A stretch of DNA of 64,000 nt, from the NCBI RefSeq assembly GCF_004135735.1, contig NZ_CP012670.1, forward strand, positions 1,550,001-1,614,000, in the 5' to 3' direction. Below the pieces are notes generated by a model. The model had not been told where the DNA came from, ran no database searches, and saw only the letters and a list, made by a program, of their open reading frames with translations. How positions within the stretch are numbered: the first letter of the stretch is position 1; every line of letters begins with the position of its first letter. This stretch comes from Sorangium cellulosum. Lineage in GTDB: Bacteria > Myxococcota_A > Polyangia > Polyangiales > Polyangiaceae. The position numbers and the translations under genes are program-made. Below, one piece after another: positions 2,287 to 57,437 of the stretch.

Positions 2287-2879
2287 GCCCTCCCGGTCAT
2301 CCTGAGTAGTTAGCGTAGCCGACGATTAACCCTCCTTGTCAAGCGCCCCCTAGGAGACGAGCCCGCGATTCGATCGAGCCTGGTGAAATGGGGATGCTGG
2401 AGAGGGCCGTAACACCGGGGAGCCGCTCGCGCGTCACCTCCGGGCCGAGAGGGCCCCGCCGGCGCCGCCGCGCGCGCAGGAAACCCGCACGCGCGCTTGA
2501 CATGTCTTCCTCTCTCAGGGCCCAATATCGCGCCCCGAGCGTCATGCCCCCCGCTCGCGCTGCGCCCGTGGGGCGCGGCGTCCCTCTCCGGCGGGAGCGG
2601 CGGATCGCAACCGCGAATTCTCGCGGTACATCATGCCTCGTTGTCCCACATGTGGAGCGATGGTGTAGGGGATGCGTGATGATTTCACCTTATCACGCAC
2701 GAGCAGCGGAGTCGGTGGGGGCGCGCACGCTCTCCATCGCAGCGCTCGAGAGGCGCGCTCCGAGAGGCGCTCTTGATACCACCTTGTGATCCACGGGCCG
2801 CGCGGGCCACGCGGCGGGCGCGCGCGCGGCCTCCGCTCGCCGGGCCCGGCGAGCGCTGATCAGACCCCGCGACGCGGCG
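2287..2879. other. intergenic region, no convincing gene
   Basis: These 593 bp separate two minus-strand genes. Open frames on both strands here are GC-rich chance frames without family resemblance or ribosome binding sites. The right end holds the putative glpD terminator (2834-2855). The left end, with somewhat AT-richer stretches near 2310-2350 and 2620-2700, should contain the promoter for the binding-protein pair. No promoter could be assigned with confidence. Confidence 0.5.
2834..2855 (-). terminator. perfect 22-bp palindrome after glpD
   Basis: An uninterrupted palindrome (CGCTCGCCGGG followed by its exact complement) lies 24 bp beyond the glpD stop codon on the minus strand. Folded as RNA it gives a GC stem of about nine pairs with a tight loop. 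There is no T-run, so it may act as a factor-assisted terminator or 3'-end stabiliser rather than a classical intrinsic terminator. Confidence 0.45.
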
Positions 2880-4748: not shown

Positions 4749-6785
4749 TCAGCTCATCGCCGCGTCGTCGGCGCGAGAGGGCTCCGCCGAGATCGGGTGA
4801 GCGCGACGGGCCGCGCTCCGCTGCGTCGGCGGCGCGACCTCGCCCCCGTGCGCGACGTGGTCGGGGTGCAGGAGCTGCCAGCGCGCCATCCGGGTGTACA
4901 CGCCGCCTCGCCGGAGCAGCTCCGCGTGCGCGCCGCGCTCGACGATGCGGCCGCGCTCCATCACGAAGACCTGATCACAGTCGACCACCGTGCTCAGGCG
5001 GTGGCTCAAGAGGATGATCGTGCGCTGGCCCTTGAGCGCGCGCAGCGCCTTGCCGAGCGTCCGCTCGTGCTCGGCGTCGAGCCCGTCCGTCGGCTCGTCG
5101 AGCACCAGGATCGGCGCGTCGGTGAGCAGCGCGCGCGCGATCGCGATGCGCTGCCGCTGGCCGGCGGACAGGTTCAGCCCGCCGTCCGCGATCTGCGTGT
5201 CGTAGCCGTCCGGCAGCGCCTCGATGAAGCCGGCCGCCCCGGCCCGCTGGGCCGCCTCCCGGATCTCCGCGTCCGTCGCGGTGGGCCGGCCATAGGCGAT
5301 GTTCTCCGCGATCGTCGTCGGCAGGAGGACGCTGTCCTGGAGGACGAGCGCGACGTGCTTGCGCAGGTCGGAGAGGCGGATCGTGCCGATGTCGATGCCG
5401 TCGAGCCGGAGCGCCCCGCGCGTGGGGTTGTGGAAGCGAGGCAGCAGGCTGAACAGCGTCGTCTTGCCCGCGCCGGCCGAGCCCAGGAAGGCCACCATCT
5501 CCCCCGGCCGGATCGTCGCGTCGATCCCGCGCAGGACCGGGTGCCCGGCGCGGTACTCGAACTCGACGCCCTCGATATCGAGCGTGCGCGGCTGCTGGGG
5601 GAGGTGGATCGCGGCGTGCCCGTCGGTCACGGCCTGGTCGCGATCCAGGACGTCGAACACGCGCTGCGCGCCCGCCACGCCGCCCTGCACCGCGGCGCCC
5701 GCGCCCGTCAGCTTGCAGAGCGGGTCGTAGAGCATGCCCAGGTAGCCGAGGAACGCCGTCAGCGCGCCCAGCGTCATGCCCGACGAGCCCCCGCTCGTCC
5801 GGGCCTCGACGACGAGGTAGCCGCCGTAGCCGAGCACCAGCGCGATCCCCAGCCCGAGGATCGAGCCCATGGTCAGCACGTGGCGGAGCTCGTCCTGGTG
5901 GAGCCGGAGCCAGGCCCTCACGCTGTTGCGCAGCGTGGCGTGGAACCGCGCCTCCTCGTCCGCCTCGCGCCCGCACGCCTGCACCAGGCCGATCGACGCC
6001 ATGGAGCGCTGCACGGACGTCGTGAGCTGGCTCTCGACCTCCTTCGCCTCGGTGCACTTCCGGCGCAGCACGCTGCCGAACCTGGCGTTGGCGAGGAGGA
6101 GCGGCGGCACGACCGCGAGCGCGAGCAGCGTGAGCGGCGCGCTGCGCGAGGCCATGATGCAGATCATGACGACGAGCGTCAGCGCGCTCCCCATCACCGA
6201 CACGGCCACGTTGAGGATGCCGTGGAACCCCGCGGCGTCCTGGTTGAGGCGGTAGATGGCGTCGCCTTGCGGCTGGGCCCGGTGATAGCCGAGGTGGAGC
6301 GCCTGGAGCTTCCGGTAGAGGTCGCCGCGCACGCGCATGAGGCCGCCGTAGCCGATGCGGAAGTTGAGCAGGGCGCGGCCCATGCCCACGCACTCCTGCG
6401 CGACGCGGAGGACGAGCGTGATCACGGCGAGCCCGATGACGCGGCCGAGCAGGCTGTCCGGAAGCGGCGCCAGCAAGATGCGATGGACGAGGTCGTCCTC
6501 GCGCGGCCCCGACGAGATGAGGTCCACGATCACGGCGACGGGCCATACCTGCAGCAGGCTGATCACGATGGAGACGGCGACCAGCGCGAAGAGCGCCCCG
6601 AGGCGCGCCCACTCGTCCTTGAAATACGCGCCTACCCGGAGGAAGAACCGGAGTCGCTCCGAGCCCGCCGGGCGGCTGGACGCGACGAGCCGGAGCGCGA
6701 TCCTCCCCTGGAGGATGCTCGAGGTGCGGCCTGCCCACCGCGGCAGCGGGGACTTCTGGTACGTGCGCTGGGCGAATGCGCTCAT
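4749..6785 (-). CDS. ABC exporter, fused permease and ATPase (MsbA/ABCB type)
   Basis: The protein has 678 residues. The first ~330 form a type I exporter membrane domain (hydrophobic stretches such as LGALFALVAVSIVISLLQ and LLALAVVPPLLLANARF). The C-terminal ATPase has Walker A GSAGAGKTT (Lys near 441), signature LSAGQRQR, Walker B ILVLDEPTDGLD and the switch histidine in LLSHRLST. Half-transporters of this type work as homodimers and export lipids, peptides or drugs; the substrate cannot be read from the sequence. The ATG at 6785 was preferred over one at 6827 because GGGAG precedes it and the extra residues add nothing. No accessory export genes flank it. Confidence 0.9.
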   Translation of the reverse strand: MSAFAQRTYQKSPLPRWAGRTSSILQGRIALRLVASSRPAGSERLRFFLRVGAYFKDEWARLGALFALVAVSIVISLLQVWPVAVIVDLISSGPREDDLVHRILLAPLPDSLLGRVIGLAVITLVLRVAQECVGMGRALLNFRIGYGGLMRVRGDLYRKLQALHLGYHRAQPQGDAIYRLNQDAAGFHGILNVAVSVMGSALTLVVMICIMASRSAPLTLLALAVVPPLLLANARFGSVLRRKCTEAKEVESQLTTSVQRSMASIGLVQACGREADEEARFHATLRNSVRAWLRLHQDELRHVLTMGSILGLGIALVLGYGGYLVVEARTSGGSSGMTLGALTAFLGYLGMLYDPLCKLTGAGAAVQGGVAGAQRVFDVLDRDQAVTDGHAAIHLPQQPRTLDIEGVEFEYRAGHPVLRGIDATIRPGEMVAFLGSAGAGKTTLFSLLPRFHNPTRGALRLDGIDIGTIRLSDLRKHVALVLQDSVLLPTTIAENIAYGRPTATDAEIREAAQRAGAAGFIEALPDGYDTQIADGGLNLSAGQRQRIAIARALLTDAPILVLDEPTDGLDAEHERTLGKALRALKGQRTIILLSHRLSTVVDCDQVFVMERGRIVERGAHAELLRRGGVYTRMARWQLLHPDHVAHGGEVAPPTQRSAARRAHPISAEPSRADDAAMS

Positions 6786-7324
6786 GGGTTGACGAGCTCC
6801 CTTGTCCTCTGCGGCTCTCAGGTTCACGGGGGCCCGGGGTCAGGTGGTGCCTGATCGACCATCGGTGCCGGCCCGTATCGAAGTGCGCACAGGTGTATCA
6901 GCCCTTCGCGTCGGCGCCTACGGCATGTGCATGAAAGGCGGTGAGTTCCTGCTGATTTCCTGCGCGCTCCTCCGGGACTCCAGGGTGGCGGCGCGGGCCG
7001 CCGGCGGCGCGCGGATACGGCACAGGCTGACAGCGCGGCGCGCTCTCCGCGCCTGCCCGCGACTCCGCCCCTCGCGCGCGGCGAGCCGCGGCCGAGCGCG
7101 CACGCCGGCGTGCGCGCGGCGCTCAGCCCGTCGCGCTCGCGCCCGATTGCAGGCACGCCGCGCTCGGCCCGTCGCGCTCGCGCCCGCCGGGGCTCCGAGC
7201 AGCGCTGTCGAGCCCGCCTTCTCCGTGTCTCGGCACGATCGATCTCGCCATCGCGAACGGGCGCGAGGGCCGCGCGGGGGATTCAAATTGCGCGTCGCGG
7301 AGGGGCGCTTTATGGGTACCGTCG
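6786..7324. other. divergent intergenic region with a short direct repeat
   Basis: These 539 bp lie between the divergent ABC exporter and response-regulator genes, and must hold both promoters, although none could be assigned. The sequence is extremely GC-rich between 6960 and 7290. It contains a 25-bp imperfect direct repeat and several CGCG-rich self-complementary stretches. No coding frame here looks real. Confidence 0.5.
7121..7186. repeat. 25-bp direct repeat, two copies
   Basis: Copies at 7121-7145 and 7162-7186 differ at one base (GCTCAGCCCG versus GCTCGGCCCG, then TCGCGCTCGCGCCCG in both). They lie within the region upstream of the response regulator. They could be a duplicated operator or a simple local duplication; nothing distinguishes these. 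Confidence 0.5.
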
Positions 7325-7825
7325 ATGGGCACCGACGAACGGCGCGGGGACGGCGCCGCCGCCGTCCAGCGCGACACCTCGCAGGCGCTCGATGGAGCCG
7401 AGGACGACGCCCCCGCCGCGCCGCTCCCGCTGCGCCCGCCCGGGCTCGGCAGCGTGCGGCGTGAGCCCCGGCGACCCGGCACGATCTTCATCGTCGAGGA
7501 CGACCGAGGCGTCAGCGACGCGCTCGCGAGCGTCCTGTCGGACGAGGGGTATGACGTGACGGTGGCCGCGAATGGCGCCGAGGCCCTGGCCAGGCTCCGC
7601 GATGCGCCGACTCCGGCGCTCATCGTGCTCGACCTGATGATGCCGGTGATGGACGGGTACGAGTTCCGCGCCGAGCAGCTCCGGACCCCCGCGATCGCCG
7701 ACGTCCCCGTGGTCGTCCTCACGGCGGGGACGGCGCCGCGGGCGAGCGAGCTCGGTGCCGTCGACATCCTCAAGAAGCCCATCGATCTCGTCCTCTTGCT
7801 CGACGCGGTCGGACGCTACGTCTGA
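7325..7825 (+). CDS. single-domain response regulator
   Basis: This is a 166-residue protein with a disordered Ala/Pro-rich N-terminus of about 50 residues followed by one CheY-like receiver domain. Seen directly: the acidic pair in TIFIVEDDRG, phosphoacceptor Asp103 in IVLDLMMPVMDG, the conserved Thr in VVVLTAG and the conserved Lys in ILKKPIDL. There is no DNA-binding or enzymatic output domain, so it probably acts by protein contact or as a phosphorelay intermediate. No histidine kinase is adjacent. The start is uncertain; a later GTG start would remove much of the low-complexity leader. Confidence 0.85.
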   Translation: MGTDERRGDGAAAVQRDTSQALDGAEDDAPAAPLPLRPPGLGSVRREPRRPGTIFIVEDDRGVSDALASVLSDEGYDVTVAANGAEALARLRDAPTPALIVLDLMMPVMDGYEFRAEQLRTPAIADVPVVVLTAGTAPRASELGAVDILKKPIDLVLLLDAVGRYV

Positions 7826-7881
7826 CAGCGCCCCCCGGGGTTTTCATCCAGGAGCGGACGCGATAAGGTGATTCCTGCGTC

Positions 7882-9312
7882 ATGCCAGGAAGTTCCCGAC
7901 CACCGCTCTTCACCAGCCTCTTGCTTGCCATCGCCGCGATCGGTTGCGCGGAAGCGTCCTCCGAGCGATCCCAGCCGGAAGGGTGGGACAGCGCGGTTCA
8001 GCTGCGCCCGGCGCGCGACCTCGACGCGAGCCCCGGGGTGGTCGAGGTCGATCTGACGGCGCGGGTCGAGGAGGTGGAGATCGTGCCCGGCACGAGGACG
8101 CCTGTCTGGACCTACGACGGCGGCATTCCCGGGCCGCTGCTCAAGGCGAGGGTCGGCGATCGCGTGATCGTCCATTTCCGCAACGACCTCCCCGCGCCCA
8201 CGACCATCCACTGGCACGGCGTGCGCCTGCTCGCGGAGATGGACGGCGCGCCCGGGCACAGCCAGGCCGAGACGCCGCCCGGCGGCAGCTTCACCTACGA
8301 CTTCGTCGTGCCCGACGCGGGGCTCTTCTGGTACCACCCGCACGTCGACTCCGCCGCGCAGCAGGGCAACGGCCTCTATGGCGCGCTGCTGGTCGACGAC
8401 CCGGACGAGCCCGCGGAGCTCGGCGACGAGCTCGTCCTCGTGCTGAGCGACATCATGGTGCACGAGGACGGCGCGCTCGGGGACCCGCGCGCAGGCGGCA
8501 ACTTCGGCACGCTGTTCGGGCGCGAGGGCGACCAGCTGCTCGTCAACGGGCGGCTCAACCCGGTGATCGAGGCGCGCGGCGGGCTCAGGCAGCGGTGGCG
8601 CATCGTGAACGCGGCGAAGAGCCGCTATTACCAGCTCGCGCTCGCCGGCCACCGCTTCACCCGCATCGGCGGCGACGGCGGGCTCATGGAGCGCCCGGTC
8701 GAGACGGAGATGCTCGTCCTCACGCCGGGCGAGCGCGCGGACGTGCTCGTGACGCCGCGGGGGGCGCCGGGCGCGACGCTCCCGGTGCGCTGGGTGCCGT
8801 ACGACCGCGGCTACGGCACCACCTTCCAGCGGCCGGAGGTCGAGGTCTTCCGCATCCGCCTCGCCGACGCGCCCGAGGCGGAGGACGCGCCGGTCCCGGC
8901 CGTCGCGCGCGCCATCCCGGCCCTCGATCCGGCGGCGGCGGTGAGGCGCGTGGACCTGAAGCTGACGATGGAGGAGGGCGAGGGCGACCTCGTGATGGGC
9001 ATCAACGACGTGCCCTTCTGGGAGGCGGAGCCGCTCATGGCGACCGTGGGCGACACCGAGGTGTGGACCGTCGAGAACACGTTTGATTTCGACCACCCGT
9101 TCCACCTGCACGGCTTCTTCTTCCAGGTGCTCGGCGAGGACGGGCGGCCGGCCAGGCCGATGGAGTGGAAGGACACGGTGAACGTGCCTGTGGGCGGCGC
9201 GGCGCGCTTCGTCGTTCGCTATGACAACCGGCCCGGCATGTGGATGTTCCACTGTCATATCCTGGATCACGCCGACGCCGGCATGATGGGGATGCTGCAC
9301 CTCGTGCGCTGA
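7882..9312 (+). CDS. multicopper oxidase lipoprotein
   Basis: The 476-residue protein has a lipoprotein signal (LLLAIAAIGC, lipid Cys at residue 22), so it should be anchored in an envelope membrane facing the periplasm or exterior. The four copper-ligand motifs are intact and in order: HWHG and WYHPH in the first cupredoxin domain, HPFHLHG and HCHILDHADAGMM in the last. The final motif ends in a Met, the axial ligand type typical of CueO-like and laccase-like enzymes. It oxidises metals or phenolic compounds with reduction of O2 to water; the substrate is not deducible. No copper-export gene is adjacent. A hairpin follows the stop codon. Confidence 0.93.
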   Translation: MPGSSRPPLFTSLLLAIAAIGCAEASSERSQPEGWDSAVQLRPARDLDASPGVVEVDLTARVEEVEIVPGTRTPVWTYDGGIPGPLLKARVGDRVIVHFRNDLPAPTTIHWHGVRLLAEMDGAPGHSQAETPPGGSFTYDFVVPDAGLFWYHPHVDSAAQQGNGLYGALLVDDPDEPAELGDELVLVLSDIMVHEDGALGDPRAGGNFGTLFGREGDQLLVNGRLNPVIEARGGLRQRWRIVNAAKSRYYQLALAGHRFTRIGGDGGLMERPVETEMLVLTPGERADVLVTPRGAPGATLPVRWVPYDRGYGTTFQRPEVEVFRIRLADAPEAEDAPVPAVARAIPALDPAAAVRRVDLKLTMEEGEGDLVMGINDVPFWEAEPLMATVGDTEVWTVENTFDFDHPFHLHGFFFQVLGEDGRPARPMEWKDTVNVPVGGAARFVVRYDNRPGMWMFHCHILDHADAGMMGMLHLVR

Positions 9313-9316
9313 GGCT

Positions 9317-9335
9317 GAGCCTGTCGTCCAGGCTC
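9317..9335 (+). terminator. hairpin after multicopper oxidase gene
   Basis: GAGCCTG and its exact complement CAGGCTC flank a five-base loop, starting four bases after the stop codon. There is no U-tract, but location and perfect 7-bp stem suggest a transcription terminator or 3' stabiliser. Confidence 0.5.
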
Positions 9336-9549
9336 GCTCCTGACGGCGCGCGCGGGAGGCCGTGCCCGCGGCGACGGCGCGGATCACCTTCGGATTTCCA
9401 ACCCTCCCGGCTCGCGCGGGACATGGGGGTGCGGGACAGGCATTGACGGCTCTGTCCCCGAACTCAATGTCTCCGCTGCTCGCGCGTGGCGGCGCGGCCC
9501 GACCTCGATGTCCGCCGCCAGGACGCGACATGGGCAAATCGGGGGGAAC

Positions 9550-10479
9550 ATGGATTCCGATCATCACCCAGCACGTCTCGAGGCGCCGCCGGCTTCGCCT
9601 TCGCGCTCGATGTCCTGTGTGGCCGCGGCCGCGCTGGCGCTGGCCGGCTGCGTGGCGGGGGCCGAGGGGAGCGACGGCGGCGCGGAGCCCGAGGGCTCCG
9701 CGGCGATGCCCATTCAGGGCGGGTATGCCGACGGCCGCCACGACGCCGTCGTCGGGCTGCGGATCTTCGCCGACGAGGGCCGGCGGACGTGCTCGGGCAC
9801 GCTCATCGCCCCGAACCTCGTCATGACGGCGCAGCACTGCGTCGCGGAGACCCCGCGTCGCGTCGCGTGCGCGACATCGAGGTTCGGAGAGCTCGTCGCG
9901 CCGGACCGGGTTTACGCCACCCCCTCTGTCCTCATGTGCGAGCGGTGCGACACGCCCTGGTTCTCGGTGCGCGAGGTGCTGCGGCCGCCGGGCGGCGGCG
10001 GCAGGGTGTGCGGGCGCGATATCGCCCTCCTCGTGCTCCGCTCGCCCGTGCCCGCGGAGCGCGCCATCCCCTTCGAGCCCCGGCTCGACGCGCCGCCCGA
10101 GGAGGGCGAGCGCTACGCCGCGGTCGGCTTCGGCCTGTCGGGCGCGCTGCGCAGGGACAGCGGCGTCCGGCGGTACCTCGGCCCGCTTTCGATCGCGTGC
10201 GTCGGCGCGGCCTGCGGCGACGCGGAGCGCATCGCGCCGGGCGAGTGGCGCGGCGAGACCGGCGCGTGCAAGGGCGACTCGGGCGGCCCCGCGCTGGACG
10301 CGGGCTCGCGGGTGATCGGCGTCGGCTCGCGCGGGCGGATCGACTGCGAGCGCCCGATCTACACCGGGCTCCTCCCGCACCGGGCGTGGATCGTCGCCGT
10401 GGGGGGGCGGGCGGCCGCGATCGGGCGCTATGCGCCGCCCGCCTGGGTCACGGGCGACCTGCTCCAGGCCGCGCCGTGA
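9550..10479 (+). CDS. secreted trypsin-like serine protease (S1 family)
   Basis: This is a 309-residue chymotrypsin-fold protease. The catalytic triad is visible: His96 in MTAQHC, Asp157 in GRDIALL and Ser244 in GDSGGP. The IQGGYADG segment near residue 56 fits the zymogen activation site, where cleavage frees a new N-terminus. The N-terminal region carries a lipoprotein-like signal (AAALALAGC). The start at 9550 was chosen because a run of six G lies four bases upstream (9541-9546 region), better than the in-frame ATG at 9508. Several Cys pairs suggest disulfides outside the cytoplasm. It ends 12 bp before the convergent M13 peptidase gene. Likely roles are predation or nutrient digestion (inference). 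Confidence 0.9.
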   Translation: MDSDHHPARLEAPPASPSRSMSCVAAAALALAGCVAGAEGSDGGAEPEGSAAMPIQGGYADGRHDAVVGLRIFADEGRRTCSGTLIAPNLVMTAQHCVAETPRRVACATSRFGELVAPDRVYATPSVLMCERCDTPWFSVREVLRPPGGGGRVCGRDIALLVLRSPVPAERAIPFEPRLDAPPEEGERYAAVGFGLSGALRRDSGVRRYLGPLSIACVGAACGDAERIAPGEWRGETGACKGDSGGPALDAGSRVIGVGSRGRIDCERPIYTGLLPHRAWIVAVGGRAAAIGRYAPPAWVTGDLLQAAP

Positions 10480-10491
10480 GCGGCGCCGCCG

Positions 10492-12606
10492 CTACCAGAC
10501 CGCGCACGTCTCCGCCGGCCTCATCGGCGTGCCGGGCGCGCACTGGAACGCCTCGCCGAACTCCGGGAGGTTCGCGAGCGGCCCGTTCACCCGGAACCGG
10601 GGCGGAGCGTGCGGGTCCACCTGCACCATCATCCTGAGCGCCTCGTCGCGGATCTTGCCGCACCAGGCCTGCCCGTGCGCCAGGAAGAACTGCTGATCTT
10701 CCGTGAAGCCGCCCGCGATCGTCTGCTCGGCCGCGCCCCTCCGCATCGCGCGGTAAGCCCGGAACGCGAGCTTCACGCCCCCGAGATCCGCGATGTTCTC
10801 GCCCAGCGTCAGCTTGCCGTTCAGCGTGAGCCCCGGCAGCGCCTCGCGGGCCGAGTACTGCGCCTCGACGCAGCCGGTCTTCTCCTTGAACGCCGCCGCG
10901 ACCTCCTTCGACCACCAGTCCTCCAGGTTGCCCTTCTCGTCGAACTGCGACCCCTGGTCGTCGTACCCGTGCGTGAGCTCGTGCCCGACCACCATGCCGA
11001 TGCCGCCCAGGTTCACTGGCACGCTCGATTTCACGCTGTAGAACGGCGGCTGCAGGATGCCGGCGGGGAACACCATGTGGTTCCGCTGCAGATCGTAATA
11101 CGCGTTCACGGTGGGCGGGCTCATCTGCCACTCGTCGCGATCGAGCGGCTCGTCGATCTTCCCGAGATCCCAGCTCGTGTGGAACGCGCGCGCCGCGAGC
11201 GCGCTCTTCGCGTACGACCTCGGATCGATCTCGAAATCGTACGTCCTCCACCTGTCCGGATAGCCGATGAGGTACGCCATCGCGTCGAGCTTCGCGAGCG
11301 CGCGCCGCTTCGTCCCCTCGTCCATCCAGTCGAGCGACCGGACGTCGCGCCGGAACGCCTCGCTGACCTCGCGCACCATCGCCTCGGCCGCCGGCTTGCT
11401 CGCGCCGGGGAAGCTCGTCTTGACGAACGGCTGCGCGAGGAGCTCGCCGAGCGCGCCGTCGGTCGCGTCCACGCAGCGCTTCCAGCGCGCCTCCACCTCC
11501 CGCTTCCCGGTGAGCGCCGCCTCCAGCGTGAGGCTCTCGTCGACGAACGCCCTGGGCAGGAGCGGCGCCGTGGAGCGCACGACGTGCCACGCGAGGTAGC
11601 TCTGCCACGCCGCGGGCTTCACCGCCGTGAGCAGCCGGGAGAGCCCCTCGAAGAAGCGGACGGAGGTCACGTTCACCTCCTTGATGTCCGGACGGCCGAT
11701 CCCCTGGAAGTACGCGTCCCACGGGAAACTGGGCGCCGCCTTCGCGAGCGCCGCCCGGTCCAGCTTGTTGTAAAGCCCCTTCGGATCCCGCCGCTCGACC
11801 CGCGTCTTCGAGATCTTCGCGAGCTCGGTCTCGATCTGCATCACCGCCGCCGCCGCCGCCGTCGCCGCGGCCCCCTTCGCCCCCGCGAGCCGCATCATCC
11901 GCGCGACGTGCTCTTCATACGTCCTGCGGAGCGCCTTCGACTTGTCGTCCTCCTTGAGGTAGTAGTCGCGGTCCGGCAAGCCGAGGCCGTTCTGGTCGAG
12001 CATCGCGATGACGCGCGTCGCGTCCTTCATGTCCTGCGCTGACGAGATGTCGAAGAGCGCCCAGATGCGGCGGCGGTGCAGCTCGGTGATCAGCGCCCCG
12101 AGGCCCTTCGGATCCCGCACCTTCTGCGCCCTGGCGAGCAGGTCCGCGATGGGCGCCACGCCGGCGGCCTCGATCGCGGGCTCGTCCATGCAGGCGCCGT
12201 AGAACGCCCCGATCTTCTGGCTCACCGGATCCCGGCCGCCGGCGCTGGCGGCGTCCTCGAGGATGCGCCGGAGCTCTGCCTTGTTGCGCTTCTCGATCTC
12301 GTGAAAGCTCCGGTACCAGGCGCGCTCGTCCCCCGGGATCTCGGCCTTCGCGAGCCAGCCGCCGCAGGCGAACTGGTAGAAGTCGTCGCAGGGGCTCACC
12401 GACCGGTCGAGCGCGGCCCCGTCGAGCCCCACCGCCTCGAGCGTCGTCTCGACGACCGGCAGCCCCTGCGGCGCCGGCTGGGGCGACGGCAGCGCGGCGC
12501 CGGCGGGGGGGAGCGGCGGCGGGCTCGCGGCGGGGCCGCAGCCCAGCAGCGCAGAGAGGGCCAGGGGGATCGCGAGGGTGGCAGCAGGCTGTCGCTTCGT
12601 GCGCAT
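10492..12606 (-). CDS. M13-family zinc metallopeptidase lipoprotein (neprilysin/PepO-like)
   Basis: The protein has 704 residues, the usual length for this family of oligopeptidases. The lipoprotein signal is clear (MRTKRQPAAT then LALSALLGC), followed by a Pro/Ala linker. The N-terminal M13 block CDDFYQFACGGWL is present. The zinc site is intact: HELTH with the first His near 542, and the third ligand in GENIADLGG. NAYYDLQRN is the conserved substrate-backbone-binding block, and the chain ends with CAVW, matching the family's typical Cx-x-W C-terminus. It should cleave small peptides in the periplasm or at the cell surface. An ATG 15 bp upstream (12621) is possible, but 12606 gives the better signal peptide. 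Confidence 0.93.
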   Translation of the reverse strand: MRTKRQPAATLAIPLALSALLGCGPAASPPPLPPAGAALPSPQPAPQGLPVVETTLEAVGLDGAALDRSVSPCDDFYQFACGGWLAKAEIPGDERAWYRSFHEIEKRNKAELRRILEDAASAGGRDPVSQKIGAFYGACMDEPAIEAAGVAPIADLLARAQKVRDPKGLGALITELHRRRIWALFDISSAQDMKDATRVIAMLDQNGLGLPDRDYYLKEDDKSKALRRTYEEHVARMMRLAGAKGAAATAAAAAVMQIETELAKISKTRVERRDPKGLYNKLDRAALAKAAPSFPWDAYFQGIGRPDIKEVNVTSVRFFEGLSRLLTAVKPAAWQSYLAWHVVRSTAPLLPRAFVDESLTLEAALTGKREVEARWKRCVDATDGALGELLAQPFVKTSFPGASKPAAEAMVREVSEAFRRDVRSLDWMDEGTKRRALAKLDAMAYLIGYPDRWRTYDFEIDPRSYAKSALAARAFHTSWDLGKIDEPLDRDEWQMSPPTVNAYYDLQRNHMVFPAGILQPPFYSVKSSVPVNLGGIGMVVGHELTHGYDDQGSQFDEKGNLEDWWSKEVAAAFKEKTGCVEAQYSAREALPGLTLNGKLTLGENIADLGGVKLAFRAYRAMRRGAAEQTIAGGFTEDQQFFLAHGQAWCGKIRDEALRMMVQVDPHAPPRFRVNGPLANLPEFGEAFQCAPGTPMRPAETCAVW

Positions 12607-49114: not shown

Positions 49115-50248
49115 TCAGCTCGCGCAAGGCGGCGGCTTCAGCCGGTGATCCCGGTAATCCCCAGCGTCCCCCGTCTTCCCCTCCAGCGCCGCGAGCGCGA
49201 TGTTGTACATCTCCCGCGCCGTCACGTAGTGGAGCACCCACTCCTTGCCATCGTTGTACCGGGTCGTGAGCTCCCGGTGCAACGCATGGCCCCCCGCGCC
49301 GAGCAAAGACTCCGCCTGGTCCTCCGGCGCACCGTGCGCGTAGACCTTCACGAACACCCACTCAGGCCGCCCCTCGATGTGAATGTTCTGATCCACCCAC
49401 GTCTTCACCCGCTCCGGCGTCGGCGGATCGATCGCCTGGAGCGCCCCGTACTCCATCCGCACCCGCAGCCGGCTCCCGCGCCGCCTCAGCGCCAGCGCCA
49501 GCGGCCCCTCGATCATCAGGATCCTGTCCTCCAGCACCTCGCCAACCCTGGCCCGCTCCCCCACCGTATGGGCCCCCCGGCGCGCCAGGTTGCCCGTCGG
49601 CCAGTAAATCTGGTTCACGATGCCGTGCTGCGATTCGTCCGGAGCCGACGGGAACGTGTAGTCGGCATAACAGCCCGTCTCGAAGAGGAGCGGCAGCTCC
49701 GCATCGACCCCGCAGTTGCTCGAGTCCCTCCCCGAGTTCGCCAGACACCAGTTGCCATGGATGAACCCGTAACGCATGCGTCCGTCCGCGTCGCGCGAGA
49801 AGTGCCCGTGCTTCCCCAGGATGTCGAGGTATCTGAGGATGTCCGCGCGCAGGTTCTCCAGCGTGTCGTTGTGATGATGCAGGTGCAGCTCCACCTCGCC
49901 GAAGCCGCGCCGCGTGAGGCCCGCCAGCGCGTCGAGCCAGCCCGGCGTGTACTGCTCCCCCGGAAAGAAGAAGCTGTGACGCGGGTGCCGGCCGTCCGCG
50001 TCGCGATACGCCCCGGCCATCTCCGGATACCGCTCTGACCACGCCCTCACGCGCGCGTCACCGACCTCGGGTGTGGCGTTCTCCCACCCAGGCTCCCAGT
50101 GATCGCAGACCGCGAACAGGAGGTGCCGCGGGCCGCTCGGGCGTGGAGCGCGGGCGTTCTCGAGCCTCTGCCGGGCATAACCGCCAAGCCATTTGTGGAT
50201 GTTCTTGCTCCTGAGATACTCGAGCTTCGCCTGGAGTGTTCCGATCAT
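49115..50248 (-). CDS. polysaccharide deacetylase-like (NodB-fold) protein, tentative
   Basis: The 377-residue protein has no signal peptide. Early in the chain LLFAVCDHWEPGW (Asp49, His50) and later VELHLHHHNDTLENL (His122-His126, Asn127-Asp128) resemble, by position and metal-ligand type, the first two NodB motifs of carbohydrate esterase family 4. FIHGNWCLANSG and GNWCLANSGRDSSNCG follow as a conserved-looking core. Families of this kind occur in exopolysaccharide clusters. The catalytic assignment is by motif style only. The location, downstream of a convergent pair of glycosyltransferases, supports a polysaccharide role. It ends about 95 bp from the palindromic element. Confidence 0.6.
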   Translation of the reverse strand: MIGTLQAKLEYLRSKNIHKWLGGYARQRLENARAPRPSGPRHLLFAVCDHWEPGWENATPEVGDARVRAWSERYPEMAGAYRDADGRHPRHSFFFPGEQYTPGWLDALAGLTRRGFGEVELHLHHHNDTLENLRADILRYLDILGKHGHFSRDADGRMRYGFIHGNWCLANSGRDSSNCGVDAELPLLFETGCYADYTFPSAPDESQHGIVNQIYWPTGNLARRGAHTVGERARVGEVLEDRILMIEGPLALALRRRGSRLRVRMEYGALQAIDPPTPERVKTWVDQNIHIEGRPEWVFVKVYAHGAPEDQAESLLGAGGHALHRELTTRYNDGKEWVLHYVTAREMYNIALAALEGKTGDAGDYRDHRLKPPPCAS

Positions 50249-50438
50249 GGGCTCTCTCGACCGCAGCGCGCTCGACCGGCGGCTGTCACGGTGAGGCCGA
50301 TACTAACCTGACGCCAGGGGCGCTGCTACCGCCCCTTGTGACCACGGGAAAAACACCGCTCGGTTCGCATCCCGGAAGCCGAGTCCCGTCTGACATGGGT
50401 GGTACGATCCCGAGCGAGCGAGGGGGGCGCTCCGGGCG

Positions 50439-50457
50439 CCTCTCTCCTCGAGAGAGG
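50439..50457 (+). promoter_or_regulatory. hairpin covering the Shine-Dalgarno sequence of the SIR2-AAA gene
   Basis: CCTCTCTC (50439-50446) and GAGAGAGG (50450-50457) are exact complements around a three-base loop. The 3' arm is also the ribosome binding site of the ATG at 50462 (spacing four bases). In mRNA the stem would hide the site, so translation should be low unless the stem is opened. Confidence 0.6.
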
Positions 50458-50461
50458 TTTC

Positions 50462-52438
50462 ATGGACGGCTGGCTCATGGACGACCCAGGCAACCGGAGA
50501 GCGCTCGACGAGCTCGTCGAGGCGCTCCGGCCCGGCGCCGCGCTCGCGCTCGTCGGGGCGGGCAGCAGCGCGCGCGTGGGCTATCCCCTCTGGACCGGGC
50601 TCCTCGATCGCATGGCCGCGCGCATCGTCGAGGACGATCCGCTGGCGCAGCCCAAGATCGACGCGCTCGCCGCCGAGGCGGATCTGCTCTGGAAGGCGGA
50701 AGAGTACCGGCGATTGCTCGGGGCCGACAGGTACGCCGAGCTCCTGCGGGCGCTGTTCGGCCCGGAGGAGGCCGCCTTCGACGAGCTCCACCGCGATCTC
50801 GTGGCGCTGCCGTTCCGGCACGTGCTGACCACCAACTACGACGCCGTCCTCGAGCAGGCCCACGCCGCCGTCTTCCATCGATCCAGGGCGCTCGCGGTGT
50901 GCTGGAGCGAGGCCGCGAACCTGCGCGACCTCATCCAGCGCATCGGCGACGCGCAGTTCGGCCGGCGCTACGTCTACCTCCACGGCCGCTTCGACAACCC
51001 GGACAGCATCGTCCTCACCGAGCGCGACTACACCGAGCGCTACGTCCGGGCGAGCGACACCTGGCCCAGGCTCTTCGCGCTGCTCGCCGCGCAGCGGGTC
51101 GTGTCCATCGGCTTCTCGCTCTCCGATCTCGACCTCATGGGGATGTTCCGGGCCGTCAAGGCGCACATGGGGCCCGGCGAGCCGCGGCACTTCGCGATCC
51201 TGCCGCACGACGCCGAGAAGGAGACCGGGACGTCGCGCCAGCGGCTGCAGGGCAAGTACGGCGTCCAGCCCGTCTTCTACCGGTGGTCCGAGCGCCACGA
51301 GGGGCTGCACGCGGTCGTCCGCGCGCTCAGGGCCGCGCTCGGGCCGGAGCGGCCGGCCGCCCCCGGGTCGTCGGCCCCGCCGCCCGGGCGCGCCTCCGCA
51401 CCCCCGCCGGCCGCGATGGCGCCGACCGCGGGCTACGATCCCGACTGCTACGTCAAGCACGGCGACCTCGAGCGGCGCACGCTCGCCGGCCTCTCCGACG
51501 CCGGCAGCCCCGTGGTGCTGCTCGGCCCGGCGCGCTCCGGCAAGACCGCGGTGCTCCGCCACGTGCTCGACGCCGCCCTGCGCGACGACGCCGCCGCCGG
51601 CAAGCAGAGCCGCGCCGTCCTCGTCGAGCTCGCGGCGTTCGGGCCCGAGGCCCAGGACTCGTACGAGGACTTCCTCCACGAGCTCGCCTCGCGCGTCGTC
51701 GAGGGCGTCGAGGGCGATGACGCCTGGACCGCCGAGGCGTGGGCGCGCCCGCTCACGCCGGCGCGCCGGCTGTCGTGGCTGCTCAAGCACCACGTGCTGC
51801 ACAGGGTCACCGGGCGGCTCATCCTCGCCATCGAGTCGGCCGACCAGCTCCCGCGCTTCAACTTCTGGGAGAACGTGCTCGGGCTGCTCCGCTCCTGGGC
51901 GCAGGAGAGCAACACCCCGCCCTGGGACCGGCTGCGCATCGCGATCGCGGTGTCGACCGAGCCGACGCTGCTCAGGGAGGAGATCCACCGCTCGCCGTTC
52001 TTCAACGCGGCGCTCCTCGTGCGGCTCGACGACCTCGGGGACGCGCAGGTCCGCGAGCTCCAGGCGCTCTACCGGCTGCCGTGGACCGACGAGGAGCGGG
52101 CCCTGCTCACCGGCCTCGTCGGCGGCCACCCGTACCTGCTCCGCGTCGCGATGTACGAGGCGGCGCTGCACGGCGCCTCCGTCCGCGCGCTCGTCGAGGG
52201 CGCCGCGAGCGGCGGCGGCGTCTACGCGGATTTCCTCGGCCAGCTCCGCCGCAAGCTCAGCCCCGAGCTGCTCGAGGCGGTCTGCGGCCTGCTCGCGGAC
52301 GGCGGCGCCGAGCTCCACCCGGACGTCGAGGACCGCCTGCGCGGCGCCGGCCTCCTGCGCGGCGGCCCCGGGGCGTACCAGATCCGGTATCCGCTCTACG
52401 AGGGCTACCTCCGCGGGGTGTGCGATCGATGCCTGTAG
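50462..52438 (+). CDS. SIR2-domain protein fused to AAA-type ATPase (STAND-like)
   Basis: The 658-residue protein has two domains. Residues ~15-245 form a SIR2-type NAD-binding domain: GAGSS (32-36), FRHVLTTNYD with Asn125 and Asp127, the catalytic-His motif YLHG (His174) and GFSLSD near the end; all key residues remain. A Pro/Ala linker (295-322) leads to an ATPase of the AAA_35/STAND style: GPARSGKT P-loop at 355-362, a Walker B-like LILAIESAD, and a helical C-terminal part (VGGHPYLLRVAMYEAAL). In known immune proteins, SIR2 domains destroy NAD+ after ligand-driven ATPase assembly. The ATG at 50462 is preferred over GTG 50399. It overlaps the next gene by ten bases. Confidence 0.85.
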   Translation: MDGWLMDDPGNRRALDELVEALRPGAALALVGAGSSARVGYPLWTGLLDRMAARIVEDDPLAQPKIDALAAEADLLWKAEEYRRLLGADRYAELLRALFGPEEAAFDELHRDLVALPFRHVLTTNYDAVLEQAHAAVFHRSRALAVCWSEAANLRDLIQRIGDAQFGRRYVYLHGRFDNPDSIVLTERDYTERYVRASDTWPRLFALLAAQRVVSIGFSLSDLDLMGMFRAVKAHMGPGEPRHFAILPHDAEKETGTSRQRLQGKYGVQPVFYRWSERHEGLHAVVRALRAALGPERPAAPGSSAPPPGRASAPPPAAMAPTAGYDPDCYVKHGDLERRTLAGLSDAGSPVVLLGPARSGKTAVLRHVLDAALRDDAAAGKQSRAVLVELAAFGPEAQDSYEDFLHELASRVVEGVEGDDAWTAEAWARPLTPARRLSWLLKHHVLHRVTGRLILAIESADQLPRFNFWENVLGLLRSWAQESNTPPWDRLRIAIAVSTEPTLLREEIHRSPFFNAALLVRLDDLGDAQVRELQALYRLPWTDEERALLTGLVGGHPYLLRVAMYEAALHGASVRALVEGAASGGGVYADFLGQLRRKLSPELLEAVCGLLADGGAELHPDVEDRLRGAGLLRGGPGAYQIRYPLYEGYLRGVCDRCL

Positions 52439-54696
52439 CCCCCGCGAGCGGCGCGCGCGCTCCCCGGCCGGACGGCGGCGCGCCTTCACGACCCGCGCCC
52501 GCGCCCGCGGGCCGCTTCCAGCCCGAGGGGCGCGGGATCGTCGACGCGTCGGGCGCGGGGCTCTACGTCGTGCGCGGCTCCGACGACGAGCTCTTCGAGC
52601 GGCTCTCCCGCGGCGAGCCGTGCCACGTGCTCGCCCCGCGGCAGATCGGCAAATCGAGCCTGCGCGTGCGGACCCAGGAGCGGCTGCGCGCGGACGGCGT
52701 CCGCTGCGCCTCGATCGATCTCACCAGCATCGGCAGCGGCGCCAGCGCGGACGCGTGGTACTTCAGCGTCGCGTCCGCCGTCGCCGAGGAGCTCGCGATC
52801 GGGGACGACCTCGACGGCTTCTGGCGCCGGCACCGCCGCATGTCCGCGGTGCGCCGCTTCCGGCAGTTCCTTCACGATCTCGTCCTCGGCGAGGAGGGCC
52901 CCCCGGCGGTCATCTTCCTCGACGAGATCGACGTCACCCTCTCGCTGCCCTTCTCGCGCGACGACCTCTTCGGCCTGATCCGCGCGACGCACCAGGCGCG
53001 GAGCGAGGGCCCGCGCTGGTCCCGGCTCACGTTCTGCCTCATCGGCGTGGCGGCGCCGCTCGATCTCGTGGCCGATCCGGAGCGCACGCCGTTCAACACC
53101 TCGCTCGCGGTGCGCCTCGACGACTTCACCCGCGACGAGGCGCGCACGTTCCTGCCGGGCCTCGCGTGCGCCGGCGGCGATCCCGCGCCGCTGCTCGACG
53201 CGGTGCTCGACTGGACCGACGGCCACCCGGCGCTCACGCAGCGGCTCTGCTACTGGCTCACGCGGGAGGGCCCGGACGAGCGCGGCCTCCCGGCCGGCGA
53301 GCGCGTCGCGGCGCTCGTGCGGCGGCTGTTCCTGTCGAGCGGCCGCGTCGACGATCCCATCCTGCTCGACGCCGAGCGGCGCTTCGCGGGCGACCGGCCG
53401 GACGCCCGCATCCCGGTGATGCTCCACCTCTACCAGCGCCTGCTCGACGGCGAGCCCGTGCCCGTGGACGGCAACAACCCGCGCCAGCTCGGGCTGCGCA
53501 TCGCGGGGCTCGCGGCCGAGCGGCGCGCGGGCGACGCCGCCGTGCTCCGCGTCCGGTGCCGCATCTTCGCCGAGGTGTTCAACCGCGCCTGGGTCGAGGA
53601 GAAGCTCGCCCGGCGCTTCCTCACGGAGCCGCTCCAGATCTGGAAGGACTCGGGCAAGAAGGACGACCACGTGCTCCGCGGCGGCACCCTGGAGATCGCG
53701 CTCGCCTGGGCGACCGGGCGCGACGACGTGACCCCGGACGAGCGCGACTTCCTGCAGGCGTCGCAGGCGGTGTGGAGCCGCGAGCAGCAGGGGAGGCAGC
53801 AGGCCGAGCTCGATCGGACCCAGCGCGAGCGCGCCGAGCAGCAGGTGCGCGCGCAGCGCCGCATGGTCTCGGTCCTCGCCGCGAGCGTGGCCCTCATGGC
53901 CGGGTCGCTCATCGTGGCGCTCGTCCTCTACCAGCGGCTGCAGCTCGCGCTGGAGGAGGAGAGCGCGCGGCGGGATCGGGACCAGCAGGTGATCGAGCGG
54001 CTGGAGCAGGGCAACGAGGCGCGCCTCGCGGCGCTGGAAGAGGCGCGGCGGCGGGCGGAGCAGGAGCTCGCCGAGGCGATCCGGGGCCGCGACGCGGCCG
54101 CGGCGCTCGCGCGGGAGCGGCGCTCCCAGGCGGACGCGGCGCAGCGCGCGGCGGAGGACGCGCGCAGGCGGGCGGGGCGGTCGGCCGGGCGCGCGCGGCG
54201 GGCGCAGCAGCTCGAGAGGGCCGCGACGAGGATGGCCGACGAGGCCGCGGCGCTCGAGGTCAAGGCGCACCACGCCGCGGCGGCGGCCGAGCTCGCCGCC
54301 CGGAAGCTGGAGGGCGCGCGCGCGGCGGCACACCAGGTGTCAATCCCGACCCAGCGCCCAGCGCAATCGGTGCTCGGCTCCGTGGAAGATGCGCTCAGGG
54401 CGGAACGCGCCGCCACGGCGCGGTTGCAGGACGAGCTGCGCCGGACGAGCGCCGAGGTCGACAGGCAACGCGCCGAGGTCGAGCGCCTCACGGGAATCAC
54501 GGCGCAACTCCAGGAGAAAACGGACCAGCTCACCCAGATGCGGAACGCGGCGCGGGAGCAGGCCGCGAGCGCCCGTGCATCCGTCCGCTCGCCTCAAGGT
54601 GGAACGCCGGCCACGGCCGATGGAGGCGCGCTCCTCCCCGACAGACCGCTTGATTCGCACAAGGACGGAATTGCCCCTGACCAGGACCGGCGATGA
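52429..54696 (+). CDS. AAA-like ATPase with membrane segment and coiled-coil tail
   Basis: The 755-residue protein starts with a Pro/Ala-rich leader, then an AAA_35-like ATPase (VVRGSDDELFERLSRGEPCH, P-loop APRQIGKSS near 69-77, Walker B AVIFLDEID, sensor region TFCLIGVAAPLDLV, and the helical TDGHPALTQRLCYWL element). A single hydrophobic helix follows at ~479-503 (MVSVLAASVALMAGSLIVAL), then a predicted coiled coil of ~200 residues rich in Ala/Glu/Arg. The P-loop lacks the usual first Gly (Ala instead). The gene overlaps the SIR2-AAA gene by ten bases, so the two are translated together. The same TDGHP/GGHPYLL element recurs in both ATPases, suggesting a shared partner or co-assembly. Function inferred only. 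Confidence 0.82.
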   Translation: MPVAPASGARAPRPDGGAPSRPAPAPAGRFQPEGRGIVDASGAGLYVVRGSDDELFERLSRGEPCHVLAPRQIGKSSLRVRTQERLRADGVRCASIDLTSIGSGASADAWYFSVASAVAEELAIGDDLDGFWRRHRRMSAVRRFRQFLHDLVLGEEGPPAVIFLDEIDVTLSLPFSRDDLFGLIRATHQARSEGPRWSRLTFCLIGVAAPLDLVADPERTPFNTSLAVRLDDFTRDEARTFLPGLACAGGDPAPLLDAVLDWTDGHPALTQRLCYWLTREGPDERGLPAGERVAALVRRLFLSSGRVDDPILLDAERRFAGDRPDARIPVMLHLYQRLLDGEPVPVDGNNPRQLGLRIAGLAAERRAGDAAVLRVRCRIFAEVFNRAWVEEKLARRFLTEPLQIWKDSGKKDDHVLRGGTLEIALAWATGRDDVTPDERDFLQASQAVWSREQQGRQQAELDRTQRERAEQQVRAQRRMVSVLAASVALMAGSLIVALVLYQRLQLALEEESARRDRDQQVIERLEQGNEARLAALEEARRRAEQELAEAIRGRDAAAALARERRSQADAAQRAAEDARRRAGRSAGRARRAQQLERAATRMADEAAALEVKAHHAAAAAELAARKLEGARAAAHQVSIPTQRPAQSVLGSVEDALRAERAATARLQDELRRTSAEVDRQRAEVERLTGITAQLQEKTDQLTQMRNAAREQAASARASVRSPQGGTPATADGGALLPDRPLDSHKDGIAPDQDRR

Positions 54697-54983
54697 GCCG
54701 CCCGAGGCTGGAAATGGGCCCGCCCGGGATCGGAAATGAGGGTCACTGGCCGTCCGGCGTGTACCGTGGGCCCCGGCGGATGCTGGCCTTCCGGACGGAC
54801 CTGCGGACTGATCCTGTGGGGGGACAGATCGCCCCACCTGTGGCGGCTTTGCGACGGCGCCTTTCGGGAGCGGTGGCGCCCTGTTGCGTCCGCGATGGGT
54901 GGTCGCGCTCGAGCGACTCTGGCATGATGCCTGCTCGTCGCGGTAGCGGACTGTAGGCATCACTGATATCGAAGGAGCCAGAC

Positions 54984-55307: not shown

Positions 55308-57437
55308 ATGATCTCCAAGCGCAAGGGGTTGCGACCGGGGGACCCGTACCCGCTCGGCGCGACGTGGGACGGCGCCGGGACGCAGTTCGCGCTCTACTCG
55401 GAGAACGCGGAGGCCGTCGAGCTGTGCCTCGTCGATGACGAGGGGAACGAGCAGCGCCTCCCGGTGCGACACCGCACCTCCTTCGTCTGGCACGTGTACG
55501 TGCCGGAGATTGGACCAGGCCAGAAGTACGCCTACCGCGTCCACGGGCCGTGGGCTCCGGAGCGGGGGCTGCGCTTCAACCCGCGGGCGCGCCTCCTCGA
55601 CCCGTACGCGAAGGCGCTCGCGTCGCGAGTGCAGTGGGACGCCGACGCCTTCGCCCATCGCATCGACGAGCCAGACGGCGATCTCCTCGCGTCGGAGGGC
55701 GAGGCGCTCGGCGCTCCCCTCGGCGTCGTGGTCGATCCCTCCTTCGACTGGGGCAACGACCGGCGCCCGTGCATCCCGTTTCACCGCAGCGTCCTCTACG
55801 AGGCGCACGTCCGCGGCCTGACGATGCTGCACCCGGAGGTGCCGGAGGAGCTGCGCGGCACCTACCTGGGCATCGCGCACCCGGCCATCCTCGGGTACCT
55901 GCGGTACCTGGGCATCACGGCCATCGAGCTCCTGCCCGTGCACGCGTTCGTGCACGAGAAGCTCCTGCTCGACAAGGGGCTCCGCAACTACTGGGGCTAC
56001 CACACGATCGGCTTCTTCGCGCCGGAGGTCGGCTACCGGGCGGGCGCCGAGGTGGCCTCGGAGGTGCGGCAGTTCAAGGAGATGGTGAAGGCGCTCCACG
56101 CCGCCGGCATCGAGGTCATCCTCGACGTCGTCTACAACCACACGGCGGAGGGCAACCACCTGGGCCCCACGCTCAGCCTGCGCGGCATCGACAACCCGAC
56201 GTACTACCGGCTCGTGCCCGGCAACGAGCGCTACTACTTCGATTACACCGGCACGGGGAACACCCTCAACGTGCGCCACCCGCAGGCGCTCCAGCTCATC
56301 ATGGACTCGCTGCGGTACTGGGTCCTCGACATGCACGTCGACGGGTTCCGGTTCGACCTGGCGGCGGCGCTGGCGCGCGGCCTCCACGACGTCGACCAGC
56401 TCTCGAGCTTCTTCACCATCGTCCATCAGGACCCGGTGCTCAGCCAGGTGAAGCTCATCGCCGAGCCGTGGGACGTCGGCCCCGGCGGCTACCAGGTGGG
56501 CAACTTCCCGGTGCGCTGGGCGGAGTGGAACGGCCGCTACCGGGACACGCTGCGCGACTTCTGGCGCGGCTCCGGCGGCATCGCCTCGGACCTCGGGTTC
56601 CGGCTCACCGGGAGCAGCGACCTCTACGAGAACAGCGGGCGCAAGCCGTACACGAGCGTCAACTTCGTCACGTGCCACGACGGCTTCACCCTGGCCGACC
56701 TGGTCTCGTACAACCACAAGCACAACGAGGCCAACGGGGAGGGCGGCTGCGACGGCGCGGACGACAACCGATCCTGGAACTGCGGCGTCGAGGGCCCCAC
56801 CGACGACCCCGAGATCCTCGCGCTGCGCGCCCGGCAGACGCGGAACATCATGGCGTCGCTCCTCTTCTCGCAGGGCACGCCCATGATCCTCCACGGCGAC
56901 GAGCGGGGGCGCACGCAGCACGGGAACAACAACGGATACTGCCAGGACAGCCCGCTCACGTGGCAGCCGTGGGCCTGGGACGAGCCGGCGCGGGCGCTCC
57001 TCGAGTTCACGCGCAAGTGCATCCGCATCCGGCACGAGCACCCCGCGCTCCGGCGCTCGACCTTCTTCAAGGGGCGGCCGATCCGCGGCGGCAAGACCTA
57101 CGATATCCAGTGGTACCGCCTCGACGGAGAGCTGATGACCGACGAGGACTGGGCGAACCCGTGCACGCAGAGCCTGGGCGTGTTCCTGTCGGGCGAGGGG
57201 CTGGACGACGTGGACGAGGTCGGCGATCGCCTGGTCGACGACGACTTCGTGCTGATGCTGAACGCGTCCCCCGAGGACCTCCCCTTCTGCCTCCCCTTCG
57301 GCGAGGATCCCAGGCCGTGGCAGCTCCTCGTCGACACGGCCGACGACCTCGCCACCGAGACGCGGCGCGGCGGGGAGGCGACGCGGCTGATCTCGCGCTC
57401 GCTCAAGCTCTTCCTCCGGAGCCGCCGCGTCGGCTGA
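55308..57437 (+). CDS. glgX: glycogen debranching enzyme GlgX
   Basis: The 709-residue enzyme is a GH13 isoamylase-type debranching enzyme that cleaves alpha-1,6 branches of glycogen after phosphorylase has trimmed them. An N-terminal CBM48-like domain ([16 protein letters not shown]) is followed by the catalytic barrel: [12 protein letters not shown], nucleophile in DGFRFDLA, acid/base in LIAEPWDVG, and [20 protein letters not shown]. The segment [14 protein letters not shown] is typical of GlgX. The gene stands apart from other glycogen genes in the window. The ATG at 55308 has GGAG six bases upstream. A 10-bp inverted repeat overlaps its stop codon and that of the convergent gene. Confidence 0.95.

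Follow-up and report, generated by a model that had tools for sequence, protein, structure and literature searches.

In most bacterial STAND immune proteins characterised to date, a single chain combines effector, ATPase and sensor, and phage proteins are sensed intracellularly; SIR2-HerA systems partner SIR2 with an ATPase gene, as does the locus described here. The SIR2-STAND protein Avs5 (AVAST type 5) hydrolyses NAD+ on phage sensing and is a precedent for the function of the first gene of this locus (PMC12931631). Two further papers describe VMAP and iSTAND ternary systems (PMC7159879) and related STAND systems (PMC8195603) as having interchangeable effectors, including TIR and calcineurin-type domains, and inactive STAND components, and as being enriched in multicellular bacteria. 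The present locus lies in a 64,000-nucleotide stretch (the window) of an 11.26-Mb, single-contig Sorangium genome, in which two overlapping genes, A and B, had been proposed as a NAD-depleting immune system of distinct architecture. The second part of that proposal holds in that no PADLOC model fits the pair, but A and B are not a one-off: a two-gene cassette of this kind is widespread, and they are its SIR2 form.

Gene A (50462..52438, plus strand), identified by its open reading frame, codon statistics and Pfam matches, encodes a SIR2-AAA_35 protein of 658 aa. Its reading frame is intact, and codon statistics back both genes. An alternative GTG start at 50399 gives 679 aa; ATG 50462, with a purine-rich, ribosome-site-like stretch upstream, is more likely the start and is used for numbering. 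A Rossmann start with GAGSS precedes the SIR2_2 core (PF13289, E = 3.4e-22; 50819..51271, plus), and the SIR2 motifs GAGSS, TTNYD and YLHG are all present, with the asparagine at residue 125, the aspartate at 127 and the histidine at 174. Comparison of this domain with solved structures returned KomC, ThsA and DSR2 chains at E values between 1e-8 and 1e-6; the TTN-D and HG motifs align in register, and the GAG.S motif does so as well. N125 (50834..50836, plus) is the predicted catalytic asparagine of TTNYD from its position and its alignment to solved NADases, and H174 (50981..50983, plus), the predicted catalytic histidine of LHG, aligns with KomC H146, the HG histidine that is changed in a KomC entry (H146N). 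The SIR2 domain of A is a predicted NADase that looks able to destroy cellular NAD. The AAA_35 domain follows at 51437..52414, plus (PF14516, E = 1e-45; 156.5 bits against a curated Pfam cut-off of 27), with the P-loop GPARSGKT kept and a degenerate Walker B (IESAD). An AF2 model of A from a two-row alignment, at a pLDDT of 40, was too poor to use, and the STAND features of A were taken from motifs only. The intact SIR2 domain and P-loop ATPase of the original prediction are both confirmed.

Gene B (52429..54696, plus) starts at ATG 52429, overlapping the end of A by ten bases, and encodes 755 aa; the open reading frame, Pfam, helix prediction and periodicity define an AAA_35 domain, a membrane helix and a coiled coil, in agreement with the overlap and layout first proposed. 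The ATPase domain (52564..53265, plus; PF14516, E = 4e-22, 78.9 bits against a cut-off of 27) has an intact P-loop (APRQIGKS) and Walker B (LDEID) and a GxP-type DGHPA motif, so that what had been called a P-loop ATPase in A and an AAA-like ATPase in B are one Pfam family, AAA_35. An AF2 model of B, built on a three-row alignment and of moderate confidence (pLDDT 63 overall, 74-91 for core residues ~80-200), is closest to Orc/Cdc6, and its further matches include MalT and the ZAR1 resistosome; the modelled Orc/Cdc6-like fold is as expected of a STAND ATPase and speaks to fold, not function. A single-sequence search found no solved relative of B, and RecA, the sole profile match among solved proteins, was rejected as a chance P-loop match. 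Hydrophobicity predicts a membrane helix at residues 482-500 (53872..53928, plus), more basic on its ATPase side, and a 3.5-residue periodicity over ~215 residues marks a coiled coil at about residues 506-720 (53944..54588, plus). This coiled coil, predicted to be a periplasmic sensor or a multimerisation part, has no Pfam match and no similarity to the coiled region of locus L043.

A neighbourhood survey for conserved pairing, as suggested in the original prediction, found A followed by B repeatedly. AAA_35 matches occur in 41 of 379 Myxococcota genomes, and the strong matches include 13 same-strand A-then-B pairs, that of the window among them, with a typical overlap of 4 bases. The same order is found on cyanobacterial and Abditibacteriota plasmids (the cyanobacterial counts cover plasmids only and are no census), while one Chloroflexota plasmid has B first and two plasmid loci hold the B-type domain within one long gene instead. 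Stand-alone B and unpaired A proteins also occur. The relatives are mostly paired, however, so homologues are not consistently found singly, an outcome that had been named as counting against the prediction. A tree built from the AAA_35 domains of 31 A and 29 B proteins separates A from B on one branch (support 99/83), with all sampled phyla on each side; the A protein of L065 sits on a very long branch adjoining this split, and its placement is unsure. The A and B trees are congruent (Mantel r 0.83, with 0 of 5000 permutations as high). This overall value partly reflects the split between phyla, but congruence persists inside each phylum, with r of 0.64 in Myxococcota (1 of 5000 permutations) and 0.81 in cyanobacteria (0 of 5000). 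It is therefore probable that A and B form an old pair and have been co-inherited.

Two divergent arrangements were also observed. L065:4577-10062 pairs a phosphoesterase-AAA_35 A protein with a B protein that has a Ser/Thr kinase before the membrane helix. At L066, an A-type gene with a DNA-binding N-terminus (6411-7688, minus) is transcribed divergently from a kinase with a P-loop ATPase region (7836-11249, plus), which suggests that the latter is an alternative partner in place of B.

Beyond the original prediction, comparison across the family brings out ATPase decay in A and a probable inside-to-outside topology of B. The Walker-B Asp-Glu pair is retained in 29 of 29 B proteins and in 10 of 31 A proteins (Glu-Ser in the window), and the P-loop in nearly all A proteins; the best reading of these motifs is that A is mostly a pseudo-ATPase and B a competent ATPase. 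Nearly all B proteins have a single membrane helix after the AAA region, and only one A protein reached the helix threshold, marginally. Of the 30 B helices without a tie in charge, 26 are more basic on the ATPase side (p 6e-5 in a sign test, indicative only, as the rows are related). With one helix and the ATPase inside, the C-terminus of B should be outside, and the sensor of B is probably periplasmic, with the C-terminal module beyond the inner membrane. The modules after the helix are WD40 repeats, CHASE2 (L059), a peptidoglycan amidase or a coiled coil; L093 has Amidase_3 after WD40 repeats, L038 a weak TonB_C-like end, and L039, L043 and L045 have cysteine-bearing ends; together with CHASE2, these features fit a location outside. 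GUN4, not an obvious periplasmic module, follows the helix in two B proteins (L055, L102), a contrary sign. B might instead belong to a cytosolic, Avs-like immune sensor in which the helix is a mere anchor, the AAA/winged-helix region or A does the sensing and the coiled coil multimerises B. Known SIR2-STAND proteins do sense phage proteins intracellularly (Avs5, PMC12931631), and the GUN4 modules may be cytosolic; we nevertheless consider this reading unlikely, since one helix and a cytosolic ATPase should put the C-terminus outside, and the amidase and CHASE2 lie in that part.

The N-terminus of A is exchanged between cassettes. SIR2 is found in the window, in L043 and L045 and in the unpaired A gene of L091; a calcineurin-type phosphoesterase in L005, L035, L037, L039, L041, L042 and L065; TIR in L038 and L054; CHAT in L055 and L096; and CHAT with TIR in L056 and L061. 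Further outputs are trypsin with TIR (L093), HTH with TIR (L095) and a kinase with a C-terminal GerE domain (L057). A DNA-binding-type domain alone is present in L040, L047 and L066 and, more weakly, in L059, L097 and L098. The A tree requires at least 14 changes of output label, and the repertoire is that of the conflict systems described in PMC7159879 and PMC8195603. The DNA-binding outputs imply that the cassette is broader than defence and not only lethal. The label of NAD-depleting immune system thus suits some members only, as others carry TIR, phosphoesterase, CHAT, kinase or DNA-binding outputs; for the window, its NADase part is supported by the SIR2 pocket residues that align with those of solved NADases. 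The reverse division of labour, with B as an effector whose activated helix damages the membrane and the SIR2 domain of A sensing or regulating through NAD or a nucleotide product, could account for a membrane helix in nearly every B. It is very improbable, given that the helix is constant and the N-terminus of A ranges over enzymes and DNA-binding domains, the pattern of outputs and not of sensors.

In one plasmid cassette, L093:1699-8269, the A protein carries trypsin and TIR domains, and the B protein has both WD40 repeats and a peptidoglycan amidase. A ~45-residue motif, SQFGGGLINAGTVNAGQIGGDIYNIHFGQ, starts several cyanobacterial A proteins; among neighbouring genes it also stands at the start of a NACHT protein and at the end of a pentapeptide-repeat protein (L060:371-2404, 2554-3954; L061:1744, 5545; L096:2198; L102:793-1263, 1301-2536, 2555). 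It may serve in signalling, as a motif of homotypic, amyloid-like or effector-associated type.

Links of the cassette to known defence genes are suggestive only. In genome G248, a cassette with a DNA-binding output (Trans_reg_C) and a WD40 sensor (L047:5922-10216) sits immediately upstream of an entire DISARM operon (L047:11004 to L103:15458: drmD, drmMI, drmA, drmB and drmC, with an AAA gene and one further gene between), which it might regulate. The L102 cassette has a type II methyltransferase and an annotated restriction endonuclease as neighbours. Eight neighbour genes scanned at five other paired loci gave no strong PADLOC match; the one gene with such a match lies beside the unpaired B of L049. 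Around the pair in the window, a Pfam scan identified two glycosyltransferases, a glycogen-debranching-type enzyme and a protein kinase, along with a conserved gene that has no Pfam match, and these neighbours bear out the initial statement that the pair is not in an obvious defence island.

Comparison with congeners showed that A and B are an accessory insert that five of them lack at this site. The gene to the left (49118-50248, minus) and the gene to the right (55308-57434, plus) are separated by 809 to 1103 bp in four congeners; here the distance is 5060 bp. DNA homology to the congeners ends at ~50310-50343 and restarts in most at ~54806-54819, and the insert was placed at 50344..54805, between the last flank homology (~50343) and its return (~54806). 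Because homology breaks and restarts just outside the two genes, the insert is A and B and little else. The contig of the fifth congener (G380) stops here, and the 585 bp adjoining its right flank show no similarity to B. The left flanking gene (49115-50248, minus) encodes a 377-aa protein with 89-92% identity in four congeners and no Pfam match at E 0.1. No flanking repeat of at least 10 bases, as might border a mobile element, was found at the insert. Recent foreign DNA, judged by composition, was rejected, as the GC content of A and B is close to that of the host, and a phage origin was likewise set aside after scans of IMG/VR with A and with B found no relative.

Elsewhere in their genomes, the five congeners have nothing close to A. 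The nearest gene, at 32% identity, is in a relative (G379) that we take to be Sorangium cellulosum So ce26; it is an unpaired A-type SIR2-AAA_35 gene (L091:7104-8954) with no B after it, ~13.5 kb from an unpaired B gene. Every genome of the genus has a B-type protein with 47-51% identity to that of the window and, in those examined, WD40 repeats. These WD40 proteins occur without an adjacent A throughout the genus (G000:C1:9050715, L036:7626-11168; five congeners, L085-L090), and such a stand-alone B could act with an A protein in trans.

The conservation of a stand-alone B in the genus would also suit an envelope-signal relay, or a developmental or kin-recognition death switch without anti-phage purpose, in which SIR2 would prune cells as development proceeds or when non-kin are encountered. 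The DNA-binding outputs on A point the same way, as does the occurrence of the cassette mainly in multicellular phyla among the collections searched, and a role in allorecognition has been suggested for systems of a similar kind (PMC10907252). The window cassette is, however, an accessory insert and not a conserved developmental gene; toxic outputs dominate across the family, cassettes are carried on plasmids and one adjoins DISARM. We regard such a role as rather improbable.

An immune role for A and B is likely, and we give about an even chance that the pair represents, in its SIR2 form, a membrane-spanning STAND signalling cassette of two genes with a SIR2 NADase output for immunity. B would be anchored by its one helix, with the competent AAA_35 ATPase in the cytoplasm and, in the orientation that we infer, the C-terminal coiled coil in the periplasm. 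A would be the soluble partner, with its P-loop kept, its hydrolytic Walker-B residues lost and an interchangeable N-terminal output, here SIR2. A presumed signal at the envelope would switch the nucleotide state of B, B and A would assemble through their AAA_35 domains into a putative complex, and the clustered SIR2 domains would hydrolyse NAD+, a predicted activity, so that arrest or death of the cell stops the invader. This explanation is favoured by the SIR2 motif alignment, the recurrent pairing, the two congruent lineages, the swapped conflict-type outputs, the Walker-B split, the B helix with its charge bias, CHASE2 and the amidase, the accessory insert and the DISARM neighbour. It is weakened by the lack of a defence island at the window locus, the eight neighbour genes at five other paired loci without a strong PADLOC match, the DNA-binding outputs, which show that some members do not kill, the two B proteins in which GUN4 follows the helix, the stand-alone B proteins, one of them conserved in the genus, and the unpaired A proteins.

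More broadly, and more tentatively, the cassettes may be widespread split, membrane-spanning NLR-like receptors, in which an active STAND protein B with an extracytoplasmic sensor drives a co-evolving, often pseudo-ATPase A whose cytosolic output is freely swapped among NADases, proteases, phosphoesterases and DNA-binding domains. The job would then be split between two co-inherited ATPases, with a sensor seemingly across the membrane and outputs exchanged like cartridges. If so, bacteria would recognise an invader or a neighbour at the envelope, ahead of cytosolic sensing or in its absence. The cassette would then be related, in outside-in form, to the NLRs of animals and plants, and would be a source of switches for death or transcription that are triggered at the envelope.

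Each known system shares some part with this pair. Avs5, like A, joins a SIR2 output to a STAND ATPase, but it is a single chain with its own C-terminal sensor and intracellular sensing, whereas A and B are two genes of AAA_35 type with a membrane-spanning partner; no Avs model was listed for A or B in PADLOC at E 1. Thoeris ThsA resembles A in its SIR2 NADase domain and alignable catalytic residues, but the PADLOC match is confined to the SIR2 half (positions 9-231 of 478), AAA_35 takes the place of the SLOG-like (STALD) nucleotide-sensing domain of ThsA, and no ThsB/TIR gene lies next to A. DSR2 and DSR1 also have a SIR2 domain; the Dsr2 model matched A over the first 180 of ~1220 positions with 38.9 bits and DSR1 with 12.8 bits, against NCBIfam cut-offs of 1400, and A is half the length of DSR2 and has a partner gene. 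SIR2-HerA uses HerA, a hexameric helicase-type ATPase, where the window has the AAA_35 protein B. The VMAP and iSTAND ternary systems use MoxR and vWA partners, whereas A is partnered by another AAA_35 protein, one that has a membrane helix, and neither MoxR nor vWA was recognised among the scanned genes neighbouring the window pair. The tripartite STAND layout of effector, ATPase and sensor in one chain is replaced by an output on A and a C-terminal module on B. As originally claimed with respect to ThsA, DSR and SIR2-HerA, no PADLOC model fits the pair: B has no match at E 1, and A matches SIR2 parts only.

The nearest named relatives may be the "Npun2340/2341 family" of MNS-clade STAND NTPases, named in a passage of PMC8195603 after Leipe et al. 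2004. Their consecutive cyanobacterial gene numbers hint at an adjacent STAND pair like A and B; the comparison is by name only, and the two may be the same family. That passage describes no output swapping, topology or pairing for them, and no paper on such an AAA_35 (PF14516) pair was found in the open-access literature searched. We conclude that the cassette, absent as such from PADLOC and from the literature found, is a split, apparently membrane-spanning, output-swapping pair built from parts of known kinds.
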